Assembly: GCA_021812385.1 (NCBI GenBank)
Contig: JAKANO010000012.1
Coordinates: forward strand, 1 to 64,000
Direction of reading: 5' to 3'
Source: Pseudomonadota bacterium
GTDB taxonomy: Bacteria; Pseudomonadota; Gammaproteobacteria; Burkholderiales; Thiobacteraceae
DNA length: 64,000 bases
Shown piece by piece: positions 6,136 to 39,672 of the stretch. A program made the translations under genes and the position numbers. The notes below the pieces were generated by a model, which searched no databases, had not been told where the DNA came from, and was given only the letters and a program-made list of their open reading frames with translations. Numbering within the stretch: the first letter of the stretch is position 1; each line of letters begins with the position of its first letter.

Positions 6136-6558
6136 TTAGGGGCGAATGTAGGTCCAGCCCGCTTGCTGCTTGGCGCCAATCTCGAGAACCCCGGCAGGCA
6201 CTACGGCCACGCCTGGTAATAAATCCTCTTTAGTGACTTTCTGCGCTTTCATGGTATTGCCGCAGGCAATGACGCGCACGCCGGATTTTTCTGCGTCCTG
6301 AATGCCGTTGCCCACAGACGACTCAAGCTTGAGCATATTGAGGCCGGGGCCATAGGCAACGATTTCTACGTCGGTATTGTCTTTGCCCAGTGCTTGCTTC
6401 ACGTTCTTGGCATTGTTGAGCGCCAGGTTCCATTTGGCTGGGTCGTTGTCGCTGACTTGGATGACAAAGCTGGCTTTTTCTGGACGCGGCGGCTGCATGG
6501 CGCAACCAGCGGAGAAGGTGACCAGGAAAGCTAGAAATAGTGTGGATACTAAGCGCAT
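6136..6558 (-). CDS. DsrE-like exported protein, probable lipoprotein
   Basis: The protein is 140 aa. The N terminus is a signal peptide ending in FSAGC (Cys19), a plausible though not ideal lipobox. The mature domain (about 30-140) is a DsrE/F-type alpha-beta fold with a single conserved cysteine in VIACGNTM (Cys99) and the motifs VIQVSDNDPAKW and EIVAYGPGLNML. It is a clear paralogue of the products at 36426-36893 and of the C-terminal half of the anti-sigma factor at 38385-39062. DsrE proteins of sulfur oxidation are cytoplasmic sulfur carriers; the role of exported versions is not established. No GGAAT/CGTCTT promoter of the kind found at the two other copies is seen upstream. Confidence 0.8.
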   Translation of the reverse strand: MRLVSTLFLAFLVTFSAGCAMQPPRPEKASFVIQVSDNDPAKWNLALNNAKNVKQALGKDNTDVEIVAYGPGLNMLKLESSVGNGIQDAEKSGVRVIACGNTMKAQKVTKEDLLPGVAVVPAGVLEIGAKQQAGWTYIRP

Positions 6559-7551: not shown

Positions 7552-7569
7552 TAATGGATATACTTGAAG

Positions 7570-7593
7570 GCTCGGGTGCCCCCGGGCTTTTTT
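7570..7593 (+). terminator. Intrinsic terminator after tRNA-Ala
   Basis: A GC-rich hairpin (GCTCGGG/CCCGGGC, loop TGCC) is followed directly by six T. It lies 18 nt after the tRNA. Confidence 0.8.
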
Positions 7594-7626
7594 CTTGCCC
7601 TAGGGATTATGCCGGGCGGCCTTGGT

Positions 7627-7656
7627 TTGACGCTCATAGTCGAAAGCGAATATAAT
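7627..7656 (+). promoter_or_regulatory. Sigma70 promoter of the ATP synthase operon
   Basis: TTGACG (7627-7632) and a perfect TATAAT (7651-7656) are separated by 18 nt. They lie about 65 nt upstream of the atpI start, after the tRNA terminator. This is the best sigma70 match seen in the window. Confidence 0.75.
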
Positions 7657-7720
7657 CCCGGGGTTTTCAAGGCCGTGATTTAGAAATGCGGCGGGTTGGC
7701 CCGAATGGGGAGGTGGCCCA

Positions 7721-8949
<1,229 letters not shown>

Positions 8950-8974
8950 ATTCGTATTTTTAGTTATCAAGTAA

Positions 8975-9238
<264 letters not shown>

Positions 9239-9262
9239 GACTGACCACGCGAAAGTAAAACC

Positions 9263-9733
9263 ATGAACATAACCGCCACTCTCATCGGCCAAAGCGTCAC
9301 CTTCCTGGTGTTCGTTTGGTTCTGCATGAAGTTCGTGTGGCCGCCCATCATGAATGCTCTGGCCGAGCGCAAGAAGCTGATTGCCGACGGTCTCGCCGCC
9401 GGCGAGCGCGGCAAGCACGAACTGGAACTGGCTTCCAGGAAGGCTGCCGATTCCCTGCGCGACGCCAAGGGCCAAGCTGCGGAAGTGATCGCGCAAGCGG
9501 AAAAACGCGCTGCGCAAATCGTCGAGGAAGCCAAGGGCACCGCGAAAGCGGAAGGCGATCGCATGATCGCCGGCGCCAAGGCCGAGATCGACCAGGAAGC
9601 GACCCGCGCACGCGAAACGCTGCGCGAACAAGTCGCTGCGCTGGCCGTTGCCGGCGCCGAAAAGATCCTCCGTCGCGAAATTGATGCCAAGGCCCACGCC
9701 GACCTGCTCGAAGCCATTAAGAAGGAACTCTAA
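9263..9733 (+). CDS. atpF: F1Fo ATP synthase subunit b
   Basis: The protein is 156 aa. One N-terminal membrane helix (about 5-26) is followed by a long charged helical stalk rich in Ala, Glu and Lys, as expected for the peripheral stator that links Fo to the delta subunit. Its stop overlaps the atpH start (TAATG). Confidence 0.97.
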
Positions 9734-10269
9734 TGGCTGAACTCGTCACCATCGCGCGGCCCTACGCCGAAGCCGTTTTCCGTCTTGCAAAAGACGGCAA
9801 TGCTTTCGACGATTGGTCGCGCATGTTGCAGATGGCCGCTGCCGTAGCGCAAGACGCGCAAATGATGGCGCTCATCGCCGACCCCAAGGTCAATGCTGGC
9901 GACGTGAGCCGCGTATTCCTCGGCGTGTGCGATGCCGGGCTCACCGCAGCAGGTAAAAATTTCGTCAAAGTGCTGATCGAAAACGATCGCTTGTCGGTCC
10001 TGTCGCAAATCGCGAACTTGTATGAAGCGCTTAAGCGCGAACACCAGAACGAAGTGGAAGCCGTGATTTCCTCGGCTTTTCCGCTCAATGATGTGCAAGT
10101 GCAAGCGCTTGTCGCCGGTCTGGAAAAGCGCTTCGGTCATAAGGTCAAGGCGACCACGCAGGTCGATGCCAGCCTCATCGGCGGCGCCCGCATTGCGGTG
10201 GGCGACGTGGTGATCGACGGCTCAGTCTCCGGTCAGCTGCAAAAAATGGCGTCCGCGCTTAAATCCTAG
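9733..10269 (+). CDS. atpH: F1Fo ATP synthase subunit delta
   Basis: The protein is 178 aa, soluble, of OSCP/delta type: a helical N-terminal domain beginning [12 protein letters not shown] and a C-terminal part with the family pattern [21 protein letters not shown]. It caps F1 and binds the b stalk. The ATG shares one base with the atpF stop, which indicates coupled translation. Confidence 0.97.
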
Positions 10270-35401: not shown

Positions 35402-36238
35402 TTATAAGCCCTGTAGCCTTCCCTTGGCACGCTGCCGCAGGCCCAATAAGGCAATCTCCCGTTCCGAGAAGCCGGCCGCCCGGCGCGCTGCGCCATTGAA
35501 CGGCGGGCCGAAGTCGGGCGCATCGTATTGCGCCAACAGCTGTTGAAAAGTAGCAACCGGCTCCAGCCCGCGTAGATCGCAAAAATAGTCATACCAACGG
35601 TTGCCGATCACCACGTGTCCGACCTCGTCGCGCTCGATAAGCTCCAGAATGCGCGCCGCCGCCGTATCGCCGGTCGAATGCAATTTGTGGCGCAAGCCTG
35701 GCGTCACGTCCAGGCCGCGTGCTTCCAATAGGCGCGGCACCAGCGCCATGCGCACCAGGGGATCGTGCGCCGTGCGCAGCGCCATGTCCCACAGCCCGTT
35801 ATGCGCGGCGAAATCGCCATAGTCGTAACCCAAGCTACGCAAATGAGCGCGCAATAGTTGAAAGTGCTGCGCCTCTTCCGCCGCCACCTGCAGCCAATCG
35901 CCGTAAAAATCGCGCGGCAAACCACGAAAACGATAGGCTGCGTCCAGCGCGAGATTGATCGCGTTGAATTCGATGTGCGTTAGCGAGTGGATGAGCGCCG
36001 CCCGGCCTTCCGGCTGGCTCAGAGAGCGTCTTGGCGCAGCCTGCGGCTCCACCAGTTCGGGGCGTGCGGGCCGGCCGGCATCGCCGATGGGAGTAATGGC
36101 TTCGTCGGACAAGGGAATGAGCGCGCCATTGCGCCATTGCTGCGCCAGCGCGGCTGTCTGCGCGCATTTAGCGTCCGGTTCGGCCTGCATCAGCGCCGCG
36201 TGGACCAAGGAGAAGAAATCGGAGAAAAAATCGTTCAT
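35402..36238 (-). CDS. DUF455 ferritin-like protein
   Basis: The protein is 278 aa and helical. Paired metal-ligand motifs (HIEFNAINLA, AAEEAQHF, ERDEVGHVV) have the spacing of ferritin-like di-iron proteins. DUF455 members are sometimes linked to tRNA modification (MiaE-like fold), but the function of this one is unknown. It is upstream of argS on the same strand with a 25-nt gap and may be co-transcribed. Confidence 0.82.
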   Translation of the reverse strand: MNDFFSDFFSLVHAALMQAEPDAKCAQTAALAQQWRNGALIPLSDEAITPIGDAGRPARPELVEPQAAPRRSLSQPEGRAALIHSLTHIEFNAINLALDAAYRFRGLPRDFYGDWLQVAAEEAQHFQLLRAHLRSLGYDYGDFAAHNGLWDMALRTAHDPLVRMALVPRLLEARGLDVTPGLRHKLHSTGDTAAARILELIERDEVGHVVIGNRWYDYFCDLRGLEPVATFQQLLAQYDAPDFGPPFNGAARRAAGFSEREIALLGLRQRAKGRLQGL

Positions 36239-36362: not shown

Positions 36363-36389
36363 GGAATAAAACGCACGCGCATGCGTCTT
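36363..36389 (+). promoter_or_regulatory. Candidate ECF-sigma promoter of the DsrE-TPR operon
   Basis: GGAAT (36363-36367) and CGTCTT (36384-36389) are 16 nt apart, about 36 nt upstream of the start codon. The same pair with a 17-nt spacer precedes the ECF sigma gene (39645-39672). The form fits ECF promoters (GGAA-type -35, CGTC-type -10). Confidence 0.6.
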
Positions 36390-36425: not shown

Positions 36426-36893
36426 ATGCATCTTGGAAAAATCAGTTACTACAGCATTATGGCCGCGATGGCCGCCACGCTCGCCGCCGCCCCGCTCAGC
36501 AGCTTTGCTGCAAACGAAAAGAAAGCGGCGGCGCAACCCGCGGCGGCGGCCAAGAAAAAACTGGTGATTCAGGTCAGTGACGCCGACCCGAAAAAATGGG
36601 CGCTGGCGCTCAACAACGCGGCCAATGTGCAAGAGGATCTAGGCAAGGAAAATGTGGACGTCGAGCTGGTCGCTTACGGCCCTGGCCTGGGCATGCTCAA
36701 GCTGGAATCCGAAGTAGGCGGCCGCGTAAAAGGCGCCCTTGAAAATGGCGTCAAGGTGGTGGCCTGCGAAAATACCATGCAAAAGCAAAAGCTCACGCAG
36801 GCTGATATGCTGCCGAACCTGGGCTACGCTAAGGCTGGGGTAGTGGAGCTCATGAATAAGCAGGCCGAGGGTTACTCGTATATCCGGCCCTAA
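36426..36893 (+). CDS. Exported DsrE-like protein
   Basis: The protein is 155 aa. A signal peptide (cleavage near SFAA, residue 28-29) is followed by an Ala/Lys-rich linker and a DsrE/F-like domain (about 44-155). Landmarks are VIQVSDADPKKW, ELVAYGPGLGML and VVACENTM with the single conserved Cys114. It is the closest local relative of the sensor domain of the anti-sigma factor at 38385-39062. AACAGGAGAC precedes the ATG. It is the first gene of an operon with a TPR protein and another exported unknown. Function is unknown; a redox- or sulfur-reactive cysteine is a reasonable guess. Confidence 0.85.
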   Translation: MHLGKISYYSIMAAMAATLAAAPLSSFAANEKKAAAQPAAAAKKKLVIQVSDADPKKWALALNNAANVQEDLGKENVDVELVAYGPGLGMLKLESEVGGRVKGALENGVKVVACENTMQKQKLTQADMLPNLGYAKAGVVELMNKQAEGYSYIRP

Positions 36894-36958
36894 AATGCAA
36901 GCGCTGGATTTAGCGTGGAATGCCCCGCTATTTTTCATGCGCGATAAGGGAGAACACC

Positions 36959-37744
36959 ATGGCAGGCACGGTTCGCTTGGTTTTAGGCCTGTTGGCCATG
37001 GCATTAGCCAGCGCATGTTGGGGGCAAACGCAGGAAGCACTGCTTGCCACGTTGGAGAAGACCAATCGCGCCGTCACTGCGCAACCGCGCAATGCCGCGC
37101 TGTATGCCCAACGTGGCGATATTTATTATCTGTTGAACGACTTGTCGCGCGCGGTGGCGGACTACAGCGCCGCGCTGACATTGGACGAGCATCAGGATGG
37201 CGCCTATTTTGGCCGCGGCATGGCCTATGGGCGCATGGGCCTGATCGACGAGGGCATCGCCGATCTCAGCGTGTATATTGCGCGCCACCCCAAGGATAGC
37301 GTGGGCTATACCAAGCGCGGCGTGCGCAATATTTGGCGCGGCCATTGGCAGGAGGCCGAGCGCGACCTTACGCGCGCCGTCGAACTCGACCCCAACAATG
37401 CCGAAGCCCACGACGATTTGGGCGTGGTGCTGGCCAAGCAAAAAAATCTGCGCGCCGCGGCGCAACATTTCTCGGCCGCGATCAAGCTCGATCCCAGTTA
37501 TCAGAAGGCGTATCACAATCTGGCGATCTGTTTTTACATGGGCGGGCGCCACGACGCGGCCTTACAAATTATCGATGCCGGCCTGAGCCTGGATCAGGAA
37601 AACCGCAGCTCGCTCATGCTCAAGGCGGCGATCTTAGAAGCGCTCGGGCGCGCACCAGAGGCGCAAAAAATTACCGCGCATGCGGAATTTCTGCCGGAAG
37701 ACAACTGGACGGAGCGCGCTGCCATCGGTGCACCATTAAAATAG
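36959..37744 (+). CDS. Exported TPR-repeat protein
   Basis: The protein is 261 aa with a signal peptide (MAGTVRLVLGLLAMALASACWG), then six or so TPR-like units (e.g. NAALYAQRGDIYYLLNDLSRAVADYSAAL; NAEAHDDLGVVLAKQKNLRAAAQHFSAAI). TPR proteins serve as periplasmic scaffolds. The start at 36959 is chosen because AGGGAGA precedes it and the signal peptide begins there; an upstream in-frame ATG at 36920 has neither. It lies 65 nt after the DsrE-like gene. Confidence 0.85.
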   Translation: MAGTVRLVLGLLAMALASACWGQTQEALLATLEKTNRAVTAQPRNAALYAQRGDIYYLLNDLSRAVADYSAALTLDEHQDGAYFGRGMAYGRMGLIDEGIADLSVYIARHPKDSVGYTKRGVRNIWRGHWQEAERDLTRAVELDPNNAEAHDDLGVVLAKQKNLRAAAQHFSAAIKLDPSYQKAYHNLAICFYMGGRHDAALQIIDAGLSLDQENRSSLMLKAAILEALGRAPEAQKITAHAEFLPEDNWTERAAIGAPLK

Positions 37745-37755
37745 GAAAAACAAAC

Positions 37756-38346
37756 ATGCTGCGAAAGATAGGGCTGCCCATGCTGTGCTTGTTTTCATTG
37801 CCGGCTGCTGCCGAATTAACGCCGCAAGATTTTCATCGCGCCGTGTATGCCTTGCAGCAACAGCAGATCGCCCAGCACGAGATACGCACGGCAGAAGAGA
37901 CAGGCGACTACGAAGGCGCCGCCGCCGCACGCTATCGCTATGTGGACACGCGCTATTACGACGCCGCCAGCGGCCGCTTGCTATCCCACGTGCGCCGCGA
38001 TGCGGACACGCCGGAGCATGTGCACATCGTCGAAGTGAATGTGTACGAGCAGGGCAAGCTGGTGCGCGATTTCGGTTCCTTGACGCTGCCGTGGGCGCCG
38101 CTACAGCCAACGCGCACCTTCATCAATTTTCACCATTACAACGGCAAATTGCACAGCTTCCGCCAGTATGATTTTTATGGCGACGTGGGTTACGAGTCCT
38201 GCACCGGAGAGTTGGCCGGAAAGCCGGTACGCATAGCGCTGGACGACAAAGACCTCCTCGATGCGGCGAACACCGCTACGCCGGAATACAAGGCTTGCTT
38301 CGACGGCATGCGCAGCGACTGGGAGCGTTATCTGACGCCGCATTGA
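37756..38346 (+). CDS. Exported protein of unknown function
   Basis: The protein is 196 aa with a signal peptide (MLRKIGLPMLCLFSLPAAA, cleavage before ELTPQ). The mature protein is rich in Tyr, His and Arg, with a pair of cysteines in YESCTGEL and YKACFDGM that could form a disulfide. I do not recognise the family. AGGAAAAAC precedes the ATG, 11 nt after the TPR gene stop, so it is the third gene of the DsrE-TPR operon. Three short GAGCGCGGG repeats follow the stop. Confidence 0.75.
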   Translation: MLRKIGLPMLCLFSLPAAAELTPQDFHRAVYALQQQQIAQHEIRTAEETGDYEGAAAARYRYVDTRYYDAASGRLLSHVRRDADTPEHVHIVEVNVYEQGKLVRDFGSLTLPWAPLQPTRTFINFHHYNGKLHSFRQYDFYGDVGYESCTGELAGKPVRIALDDKDLLDAANTATPEYKACFDGMRSDWERYLTPH

Positions 38347-38384: not shown

Positions 38385-39062
38385 TTACGGTCGTACGTAA
38401 GCGTAGCCGTCCTGCTGCCGCTGAATGATTTCCACCACGCCCGCCGGCACGATGCCCACTCCTTGCGTGAGTTCGTCATGGGTGGTGTGGGTCAGGGCCA
38501 TGGTGTTGCCGCAGGCCAAAAGCTTCACGCCATTTTTTTGCGCTTCCGCCAAACCGGAGGCAACCACCGAATCGCTGTGCAGCATTTTCAGCCCCGGCCC
38601 GTAGGCGACAATTTCCACGCCGATGGGTTTATCGCCATAGGCTTTGTGTACATTGCGCGCATTGATCAGCGCCATCTCCCATTTCGCCGGGTCGGCATCG
38701 CTGACTTGGATCACTACGCCTTTCAGCGTGCCGGCGCTGCGCGTGCCAGCGCTGCGCGTAATAGTGCTGTTCGGGAGCAGCGTGTGCAGCCCAACGCCGA
38801 TGGCGACGCCGACAGCAAGCAATAGCGAAGCGGCGAGTTTATGGCTGCCCCAAAACGGCGCCGCGGTCAGCGCCGGCGGCGGCGCAGGCGGCCGCTCGTA
38901 GGCGTGGCGCAGCAGGCTGCGTGTTTGCTGGATTTCGGCGACGCGCTGTTGCAAGGCTGCGTCGCGGCCCAGCGCCTCCAGCACCCGCGCGCGATCGCTC
39001 GCGTTCAGCTGCTCGTCGACGTAGGCATTCAATTCTTCTTCGGATATCGGCTGCGCACTCAT
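38385..39062 (-). CDS. Transmembrane anti-sigma factor with periplasmic DsrE-like sensor domain
   Basis: The protein is 225 aa in three parts. Residues 1-60 are a helical anti-sigma region (SEEELNAYVDEQLNASDRARV) without the HxxxCxxC zinc motif. One membrane helix lies at about 75-97. After a short linker with an AGTRS repeat comes a DsrE-like domain (114-225) with VIQVSDADPAKW, EIVAYGPGLKML and LLACGNTM with Cys184. That domain is homologous over its full length to the exported proteins at 36426-36893 and 6136-6558. The ATG overlaps the sigma factor stop (ATGA). It should hold the sigma factor at the membrane until a periplasmic signal is sensed. The domain combination is unusual to me. Confidence 0.85.
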   Translation of the reverse strand: MSAQPISEEELNAYVDEQLNASDRARVLEALGRDAALQQRVAEIQQTRSLLRHAYERPPAPPPALTAAPFWGSHKLAASLLLAVGVAIGVGLHTLLPNSTITRSAGTRSAGTLKGVVIQVSDADPAKWEMALINARNVHKAYGDKPIGVEIVAYGPGLKMLHSDSVVASGLAEAQKNGVKLLACGNTMALTHTTHDELTQGVGIVPAGVVEIIQRQQDGYAYVRP

Positions 39063-39610
39063 TGCCCTGTCCTCGATTTTGGTGTCAGCACATACAGGGA
39101 TGCGGGTGCCTCGTGCAGCAAATCCCGCAAGGCCAAGCGCGCCCGGCTCAAGCGGCTCATCACGGTGCCGACCGGAATGCCCAGCGCTTGCGCCGCCGCA
39201 CTGTAAGACATTTCTTCCAGATCCACCAGCGTGACCACTTGGCGCTGACCGAGCGGAAGTATCGCCACCGCGCGACGCACGCGGCCGACCAGTTCGCTTT
39301 CGACGTGTTGCTGTTCCGGCGTGGGCGTATCCGCAGGCAGCTCCATGATCTCATCGATATCCGCTGACGGATGCAGGCGGCGGAAATGATCGCGCCAGCA
39401 GTTGTTGAGGATGCTGAACAGCCACGCTTCCAGCACCGACGCGTCCTTCAGTTGGTGCACGGCATTCAAGCCTTTGATGACAGTTTCTTGGGCCAGATCA
39501 TCCGCCAAACAAGCGTCGTGGCACCAGGCATAGGCGAGCCGATACAAGCGCGGGCGCGCTTCGGCAATGCGGGCCTTTAAGGCGCGAATGTGGAGTAAGG
39601 AAGAAAGCAT
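39059..39610 (-). CDS. ECF-type RNA polymerase sigma factor
   Basis: The protein is 183 aa. Region 2 (about 18-82: RLYRLAYAWCHDACLADDLAQETVIKGL, LEAWLFSILNNCWRDHFRR) and region 4 (about 115-165: ILPLGQRQVVTLVDLEEMSYSAAAQALGIPVGTVMSRLSRAR) are complete, with no region 3, as in ECF factors. It is coupled to the anti-sigma gene by an ATGA overlap. A candidate autoregulatory promoter, GGAAT-N17-CGTCTT, lies about 35 nt upstream. Confidence 0.93.
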   Translation of the reverse strand: MLSSLLHIRALKARIAEARPRLYRLAYAWCHDACLADDLAQETVIKGLNAVHQLKDASVLEAWLFSILNNCWRDHFRRLHPSADIDEIMELPADTPTPEQQHVESELVGRVRRAVAILPLGQRQVVTLVDLEEMSYSAAAQALGIPVGTVMSRLSRARLALRDLLHEAPASLYVLTPKSRTGQ

Positions 39611-39644: not shown

Positions 39645-39672
39645 AAGACGTGCGAACCGAGCGCTATATTCC
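39645..39672 (-). promoter_or_regulatory. Candidate ECF-sigma autoregulatory promoter
   Basis: On the minus strand GGAAT (39672-39668) and CGTCTT (39650-39645) are 17 nt apart, about 35 nt before the sigma start. The same elements precede the DsrE-TPR operon at 36363-36389 at the same distance from its start codon. Confidence 0.6.

Follow-up and report, generated by a model that had tools for sequence, protein, structure and literature searches.

The RpoE1 and RpoE4 systems of Sinorhizobium meliloti are ECF sigma/anti-sigma systems whose activation accompanies the use of thiosulfate or taurine and is probably caused by sulfite; they control sulfite oxidation, with the sorT sulfite dehydrogenase as target (PMC3511301). 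RpoE1/RpoE4 (ECF26) is the nearest described system to the locus analyzed here, and we came upon no description of a sensor domain for either. The closest solved relatives of the sensor domain considered below, MTH1491 and ST0148, have PDB titles that say unknown function, and MTH1491 is a homotrimer (PMC5495134).

The locus lies in a window (the whole stretch of DNA that was analyzed, 64,000 nucleotides) and consists of an ECF sigma factor gene followed by the gene of an anti-sigma factor that ends in a DsrE domain. There is good support, from the sequence, the fold, the topology elements, the conserved cysteine, and the autoregulatory promoter, for reading the two as an ECF/anti-sigma pair that spans the membrane and has a DsrE domain as its periplasmic sensor. 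To our knowledge, it is poorly understood how sulfur oxidizers detect sulfur compounds in the periplasm, the site of Sox chemistry. The first-pass annotation of this DNA knew of no described anti-sigma factor with a DsrE sensor, and our search of open-licence full texts agrees in that no description of such a protein was found there; the architecture may still appear elsewhere as an entry with no account of its function.

The sigma/anti-sigma pair and its DsrE domain

The sigma factor consists of regions 2 and 4 only and scores 85.2 bits against TIGR02937 (cut-off 42.9), which places it in the ECF class. Both open reading frames were found on the minus strand where the first-pass annotation had put them, overlapping by ATGA as it said (Table 1), and a chance or frame artefact is excluded by homologues of the same architecture in dozens of families and by their unchanging cysteine. 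The AlphaFold model of the anti-sigma protein, which draws on 54 related sequences and has a mean pLDDT of 90.1, contains three N-domain helices (residues 8-15, 21-33, and 35-54) and a membrane helix, the latter in agreement with the hydropathy maximum and with the single helix that had been noted. An N terminus of sigma-binding type had likewise been proposed, and residues 4-55 of the model do adopt a MucA-like fold, aligning by VIA-align with MucA in the AlgU-MucA complex (8z6g) at Z 6.2, rmsd 2.4 Å, and 29% identity. This Z score is middling for a small helical domain, yet the identity and the expected class of partner support a MucA-like domain. The Pfam RseA_N match (E 0.011) is under its gathering score, and a PDB profile search returned the same two leads, MTH1491 and MucA, with MucA at E 0.023 only. 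A zinc-type N domain (ZAS, zf-HC2) was rejected for the window protein, in which HxxxCxxC is absent. On the basis of established anti-sigma biology, we infer that the N domain, inside the cell, inhibits the cognate sigma factor.

Table 1. Positions of the genes, domains, and predicted promoters (window numbering, except where a locus is named)
Feature	Position	Strand	Basis or remark
ECF sigma factor gene, 183 aa, regions 2 and 4 only	39059..39610	-	Pfam Sigma70_r2 1.1e-13, Sigma70_r4_2 2.6e-15
Anti-sigma-DsrE fusion gene, 225 aa	38385..39062	-	ATGA overlap with sigma gene
RseA/MucA-like cytoplasmic sigma-binding domain (putative)	codons 4-58, 38889..39053	-	model match to MucA; RseA_N sub-threshold
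Single transmembrane helix	codons 71-95, 38778..38852	-	AlphaFold helix 71-95; hydropathy peak at residues 74-97
Periplasmic (predicted) DsrE domain	codons 114-225, 38388..38723	-	Pfam, phmmer, Foldseek, VIA-align
Cys184 codon	38511..38513	-	invariant in every aligned fusion
Predicted autoregulated ECF promoter, GGAATA-N16-CGTC	39647..39672 (strict form 39645-39672)	-	35 nt upstream of sigma
Second predicted promoter of the same sigma factor, GGAATA-N15-CGTC	36363..36387 (strict form to 36389)	+	about 37 nt upstream of secreted DsrE gene
Secreted DsrE paralogue, signal peptide, one Cys at 114	36426..36893	+	Pfam DsrE 3.7e-8
Exported TPR protein, second in predicted transcript with DsrE	36920..37744	+	TPR match
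196-aa putative exported protein, third in predicted target operon	37756..38346	+	convergent with anti-sigma gene
C-type fusion	L043 7187-7885		zf-HC2; different DsrE subgroup
C-type fusion	L044 7698-8402		zf-HC2; different DsrE subgroup

The C-terminal half matches Pfam DsrE at 7.8e-7, passing the gathering score, and residues 116-225 match MTH1491 (PDB 1l1s) by phmmer at 1.7e-15. The structure check that the first-pass annotation had suggested was run, and this half models as a full DsrE fold: Foldseek matches the modeled domain to 1l1s at 8.1e-11 (TMt 0.93), and VIA-align superimposes residues 113-225 on MTH1491 with Z 20.6 and an rmsd of 1.2 Å over 111 residues. Cys184, the only cysteine of the protein, lies in the family's cysteine motif ACxNT, where the third strand ends, so that the complete domain with a single cysteine described at first pass agrees with both fold and cysteine count. 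The residue is kept in 54 of 54 and 81 of 81 fusions in two partly overlapping collections, both gathered by profiles made from cysteine-bearing members, and it stays constant although identity to the window protein drops to about 17-30%. The DsrE domain is probably in the periplasm, since the protein has no signal peptide and one transmembrane helix and its free relatives are secreted.

Distribution, promoters, and predicted targets

The search for this domain architecture, also suggested beforehand, covered a class-wide sample of 370 genomes and found full-length sigma/anti-sigma-DsrE pairs in 73 of them, which belong to 42 families; several of these genomes have two or three copies. A search of whole genomes with the window protein located the fusion in the window's own genus (G001-G005) and, beyond it, in further families of that order, and a GTDB scan via one conserved peptide gave 266 relatives, the best 80 of which make up our named set. 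Homologues across dozens of families exclude a lone oddity of one genus, and no relative was present among viral contigs, which speaks against a viral origin. Outside the class, a 348-genome sample of the phylum contained free DsrE only and no full-length fusion; one named match (L136), truncated where its contig ends, is on a contig nominally binned as Desulfobacterales.

The fusions are of three kinds: A, that of the window's genus; B, the common one, with sigma factors 51-59% and N domains 35-44% identical to those of the window; and C, with a zf-HC2 zinc-type N domain (3.1e-8 in L043 and 5.4e-12 in L044) and a distant sigma factor. Upstream of the two C-type loci there is a GGAATAAA-like -35 without the CGTC -10. 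In the DsrE-domain tree the C type stands apart from A and B, and a single clade of all three fused domains is rejected (AU p 0.007), so that the phylogeny points to recruitment of DsrE by anti-sigma factors at least twice. A single clade of A and B is compatible with the data (AU p 0.57), and the quick tree, in which the window domain sits among free DsrE proteins, is therefore no proof of a separate origin. One locus (L089, G259, 7569-9972) carries two such sigma/anti-sigma pairs in tandem, accompanied by secreted DsrE genes both divergent from them and downstream, and three fusions are present in each of G173 and G128; because of such genomes, multiple specificities may coexist in one cell.

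The promoter and regulon go beyond what the first-pass annotation described. Upstream of the sigma genes we found the motif TGGAATAA-N15/16-CGTCTTA (short form GGAATA-N15/16-CGTC), which precedes the sigma gene at 41 of 54 loci (shuffles: mean 0.04, maximum 2) and, with a spacer of 15-16, at 76 of the 80 loci of the named set (the best 80 of 266); several of the loci that lack it run off the end of a contig or have a wrongly placed sigma start. All fusion loci together hold 215 matches, against 1 and 4 for the control patterns. Sigma genes account for 116 of these matches and free DsrE genes for 51, the motif being present at 51 of the 95 free DsrE genes there. A looser pattern matches genome-wide no more commonly than its control, and hence only the stricter form is informative. 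This form, GGAATAW-N14/15-CGTCTW, occurs twice in the window's 3.29 Mb genome (control pattern, 1).

Because those two strict matches are at the sigma gene and the secreted DsrE gene, we predict from the promoter motif a regulon of two converging operons, sigma/anti-sigma and DsrE/TPR/196-aa protein. The secreted DsrE protein, 46% identical to the fused domain, is the predicted main member. The motif stands directly before the TPR gene in relatives L047, L048, L049, and G005, no Pfam family matched the 196-aa protein, and the gene order is retained in L045 and L047-L049. A third DsrE protein of the window (6136-6558, minus strand), a predicted lipoprotein, has the genome's closest domain to the fused one (55% identical), and no sigma promoter motif was present upstream of its gene. 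The regulon is adjoined by a gene for a DUF455 protein (35402-36238, minus strand), at which no motif was seen.

Across the fusion loci the usual layout has the secreted DsrE gene, followed by a porin gene, divergent from the sigma and anti-sigma-DsrE genes; otherwise sigma, anti-sigma, and secreted DsrE are collinear. The porin-like gene is found at 19 of 53 loci (for example L038 2659-4080). It encodes a conserved porin-like outer-membrane protein, lies with or beside secreted DsrE, and is directly behind the motif in L083 and L097. In related genomes the motif also precedes other DsrE genes and genes for a solute-binding protein, a DUF255/thioredoxin-like protein, and a TAT-exported haloacid-dehalogenase-like protein, and most of the genes so preceded have an apparent export signal. 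Within the window's genus, three genomes have a haloacid dehalogenase type II with a TAT signal directly behind the motif (L227 316-1086, L225, and L234).

The sulfur link, a proposed mechanism, and its alternatives

SoxB above its curated cut-off is encoded by 57 of 73 fusion genomes and by 73 of the 297 others of the class sample (odds ratio 10.9, Fisher p 4e-17, uncorrected for kinship), leaving 16 of the 73 without it; among close relatives the figures are 13 of 14 and 21 of 46. In several genomes soxB is no more than about 10 kb from the fusion; a true soxB is close by in G029, G043, G207, G295, and G405 (loci L040, L042, L108, L109, and L110), and G197 has one at a distance of 2.5 kb. 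The soxB-related gene of L099 was rejected as soxB, being nucleotidase-like and below the SoxB cut-off, though the promoter motif is present. The window's own genome encodes SoxB and DsrA, with no sox or dsrAB genes beside the pair in the window. Carriers with a genus name mostly belong to sulfur-oxidizer genera, including Thiohalobacter, Thiogranum, Sulfuricella, Sulfurimicrobium, Thiobacillus, Sulfuritalea, Sulfuricaulis, and Acidiferrobacter; many others are MAGs. The co-occurrence with SoxB, the nearby soxB genes, the carriers named for sulfur oxidation, and the secreted DsrE protein as main predicted target lend indirect support to a sulfur-related signal. The first-pass annotation had read the locus as a redox- or sulfur-responsive transmembrane switch: the transmembrane pair with a periplasmic DsrE domain stands, and the sulfur signal stands as indirectly supported.

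We think it rather likely that the anti-sigma factor senses reactive sulfur in the periplasm via Cys184 and frees the sigma factor, which then raises itself and the secreted DsrE protein. In the resting state, the anti-sigma factor, anchored in the membrane, would hold the sigma factor with its N-terminal domain. The trigger would be reactive sulfur that has entered the periplasm, namely sulfane sulfur of thiosulfate or polysulfide origin, which the secreted DsrE protein may pass to the sensor, and Cys184 would be persulfidated or modified in some other way. The modified residue would alter the DsrE domain or its oligomeric state, or open the protein to proteolysis, and the freed sigma factor would transcribe its own operon and the secreted DsrE/TPR/third gene from the GGAATA-N15/16-CGTC promoters, which would close a feedback loop. 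In this scheme we infer sigma binding, the periplasmic orientation, the chemistry of Cys184, the direction of the response, and proteolysis. By analogy with the chemistry of the DsrE family, Cys184 would carry or react with sulfur; with one cysteine only, an internal disulfide is excluded, and the candidates may include a persulfide, a mixed or intermolecular disulfide (e.g., with the secreted paralogue), ligand binding, and a change of trimer state.

Cysteine-based redox control of anti-sigma factors is established (RsrA), and Cys184, sole and invariant, might sense oxidants or redox state generally (peroxide, hypochlorous acid, or disulfide stress) instead of sulfur compounds, as the DUF255/thioredoxin-like protein among the predicted targets in relative L212 would fit. 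We regard this as unlikely, given that carriers are concentrated among sulfur oxidizers and that DsrE proteins and porins, rather than catalases or peroxidases, lead the predicted targets. Equally improbable in our judgment is that the DsrE domain is an interaction or oligomerization module to which the secreted paralogue binds in mixed trimers, setting the sigma factor by envelope state, with Cys184 structural or catalytic: MTH1491 is indeed trimeric (PMC5495134) and the secreted paralogue adjoins the pair, under the same promoter in many genomes, but a strictly conserved cysteine of reactive type exceeds the needs of an interaction surface, and the B-type fused domains elsewhere are strongly diverged from the free ones. 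Non-covalent binding of a small anion (sulfite or thiosulfate) by the DsrE domain, which would then be a periplasmic ligand sensor, has a precedent in the response of the thiosulfate- or taurine-responsive, probably sulfite-activated RpoE1/RpoE4, but we found no report of a DsrE domain in them and the invariance of Cys184 favors covalent chemistry, which makes such a sensor very doubtful.

The promoter signature precedes both the pair's own genes and the gene of the secreted copy of the sensor domain, and this points to a self-contained sulfur-compound sensing circuit. More tentatively, this could be a widespread and previously undescribed periplasmic sulfane-sulfur circuit of sulfur-oxidizing proteobacteria, in which the secreted paralogous DsrE protein, as main product of the regulon, would set the response by supplying the sensor cysteine with sulfur or by drawing sulfur off it. 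As a candidate sensor the pair is concrete: it has one cysteine to examine, its promoter signature is defined, its predicted regulon is small, and it is conserved in dozens of families, cultured genera (Sulfuricella, Thiobacillus, and Thiohalobacter) included. We know of no assigned function for secreted MTH1491-like DsrE proteins, and the circuit would give them a first physiological role.

Comparison with known systems

With RpoE1/RpoE4 (ECF26) the pair shares an ECF sigma factor with an anti-sigma factor, autoregulation, and a link to thiosulfate/sulfite oxidation (PMC3511301), but the target there is the sorT sulfite dehydrogenase, whereas the predicted targets here are DsrE proteins; no sulfite dehydrogenase gene was recognized beside the window pair. 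With RseA/MucA (RpoE/AlgU) it has in common a sigma gene followed by an anti-sigma gene, a MucA-like N domain, one transmembrane helix, and an autoregulated operon, and it differs in having DsrE as its periplasmic domain in place of the RseA C-terminal domain, for which the window protein gave no Pfam match, its C-terminal half being DsrE. No RseB-type partner gene was recognized beside the pair in the listed neighborhood, nor were dsrF/dsrH-type partner genes. DsrEFH/TusBCD share the fold family (Z 13-14) and the family's cysteine-based sulfur chemistry; they are, however, cytoplasmic heterohexamers of low identity (13-18%) to the fused domain. Finally, MTH1491 (1L1S) and ST0148 share the whole domain fold, the C-terminal GxAYxRP motif, and the ACxNT cysteine motif, but they are free single-domain proteins, whereas here the DsrE domain is tethered to an anti-sigma domain and predicted to lie outside the membrane.
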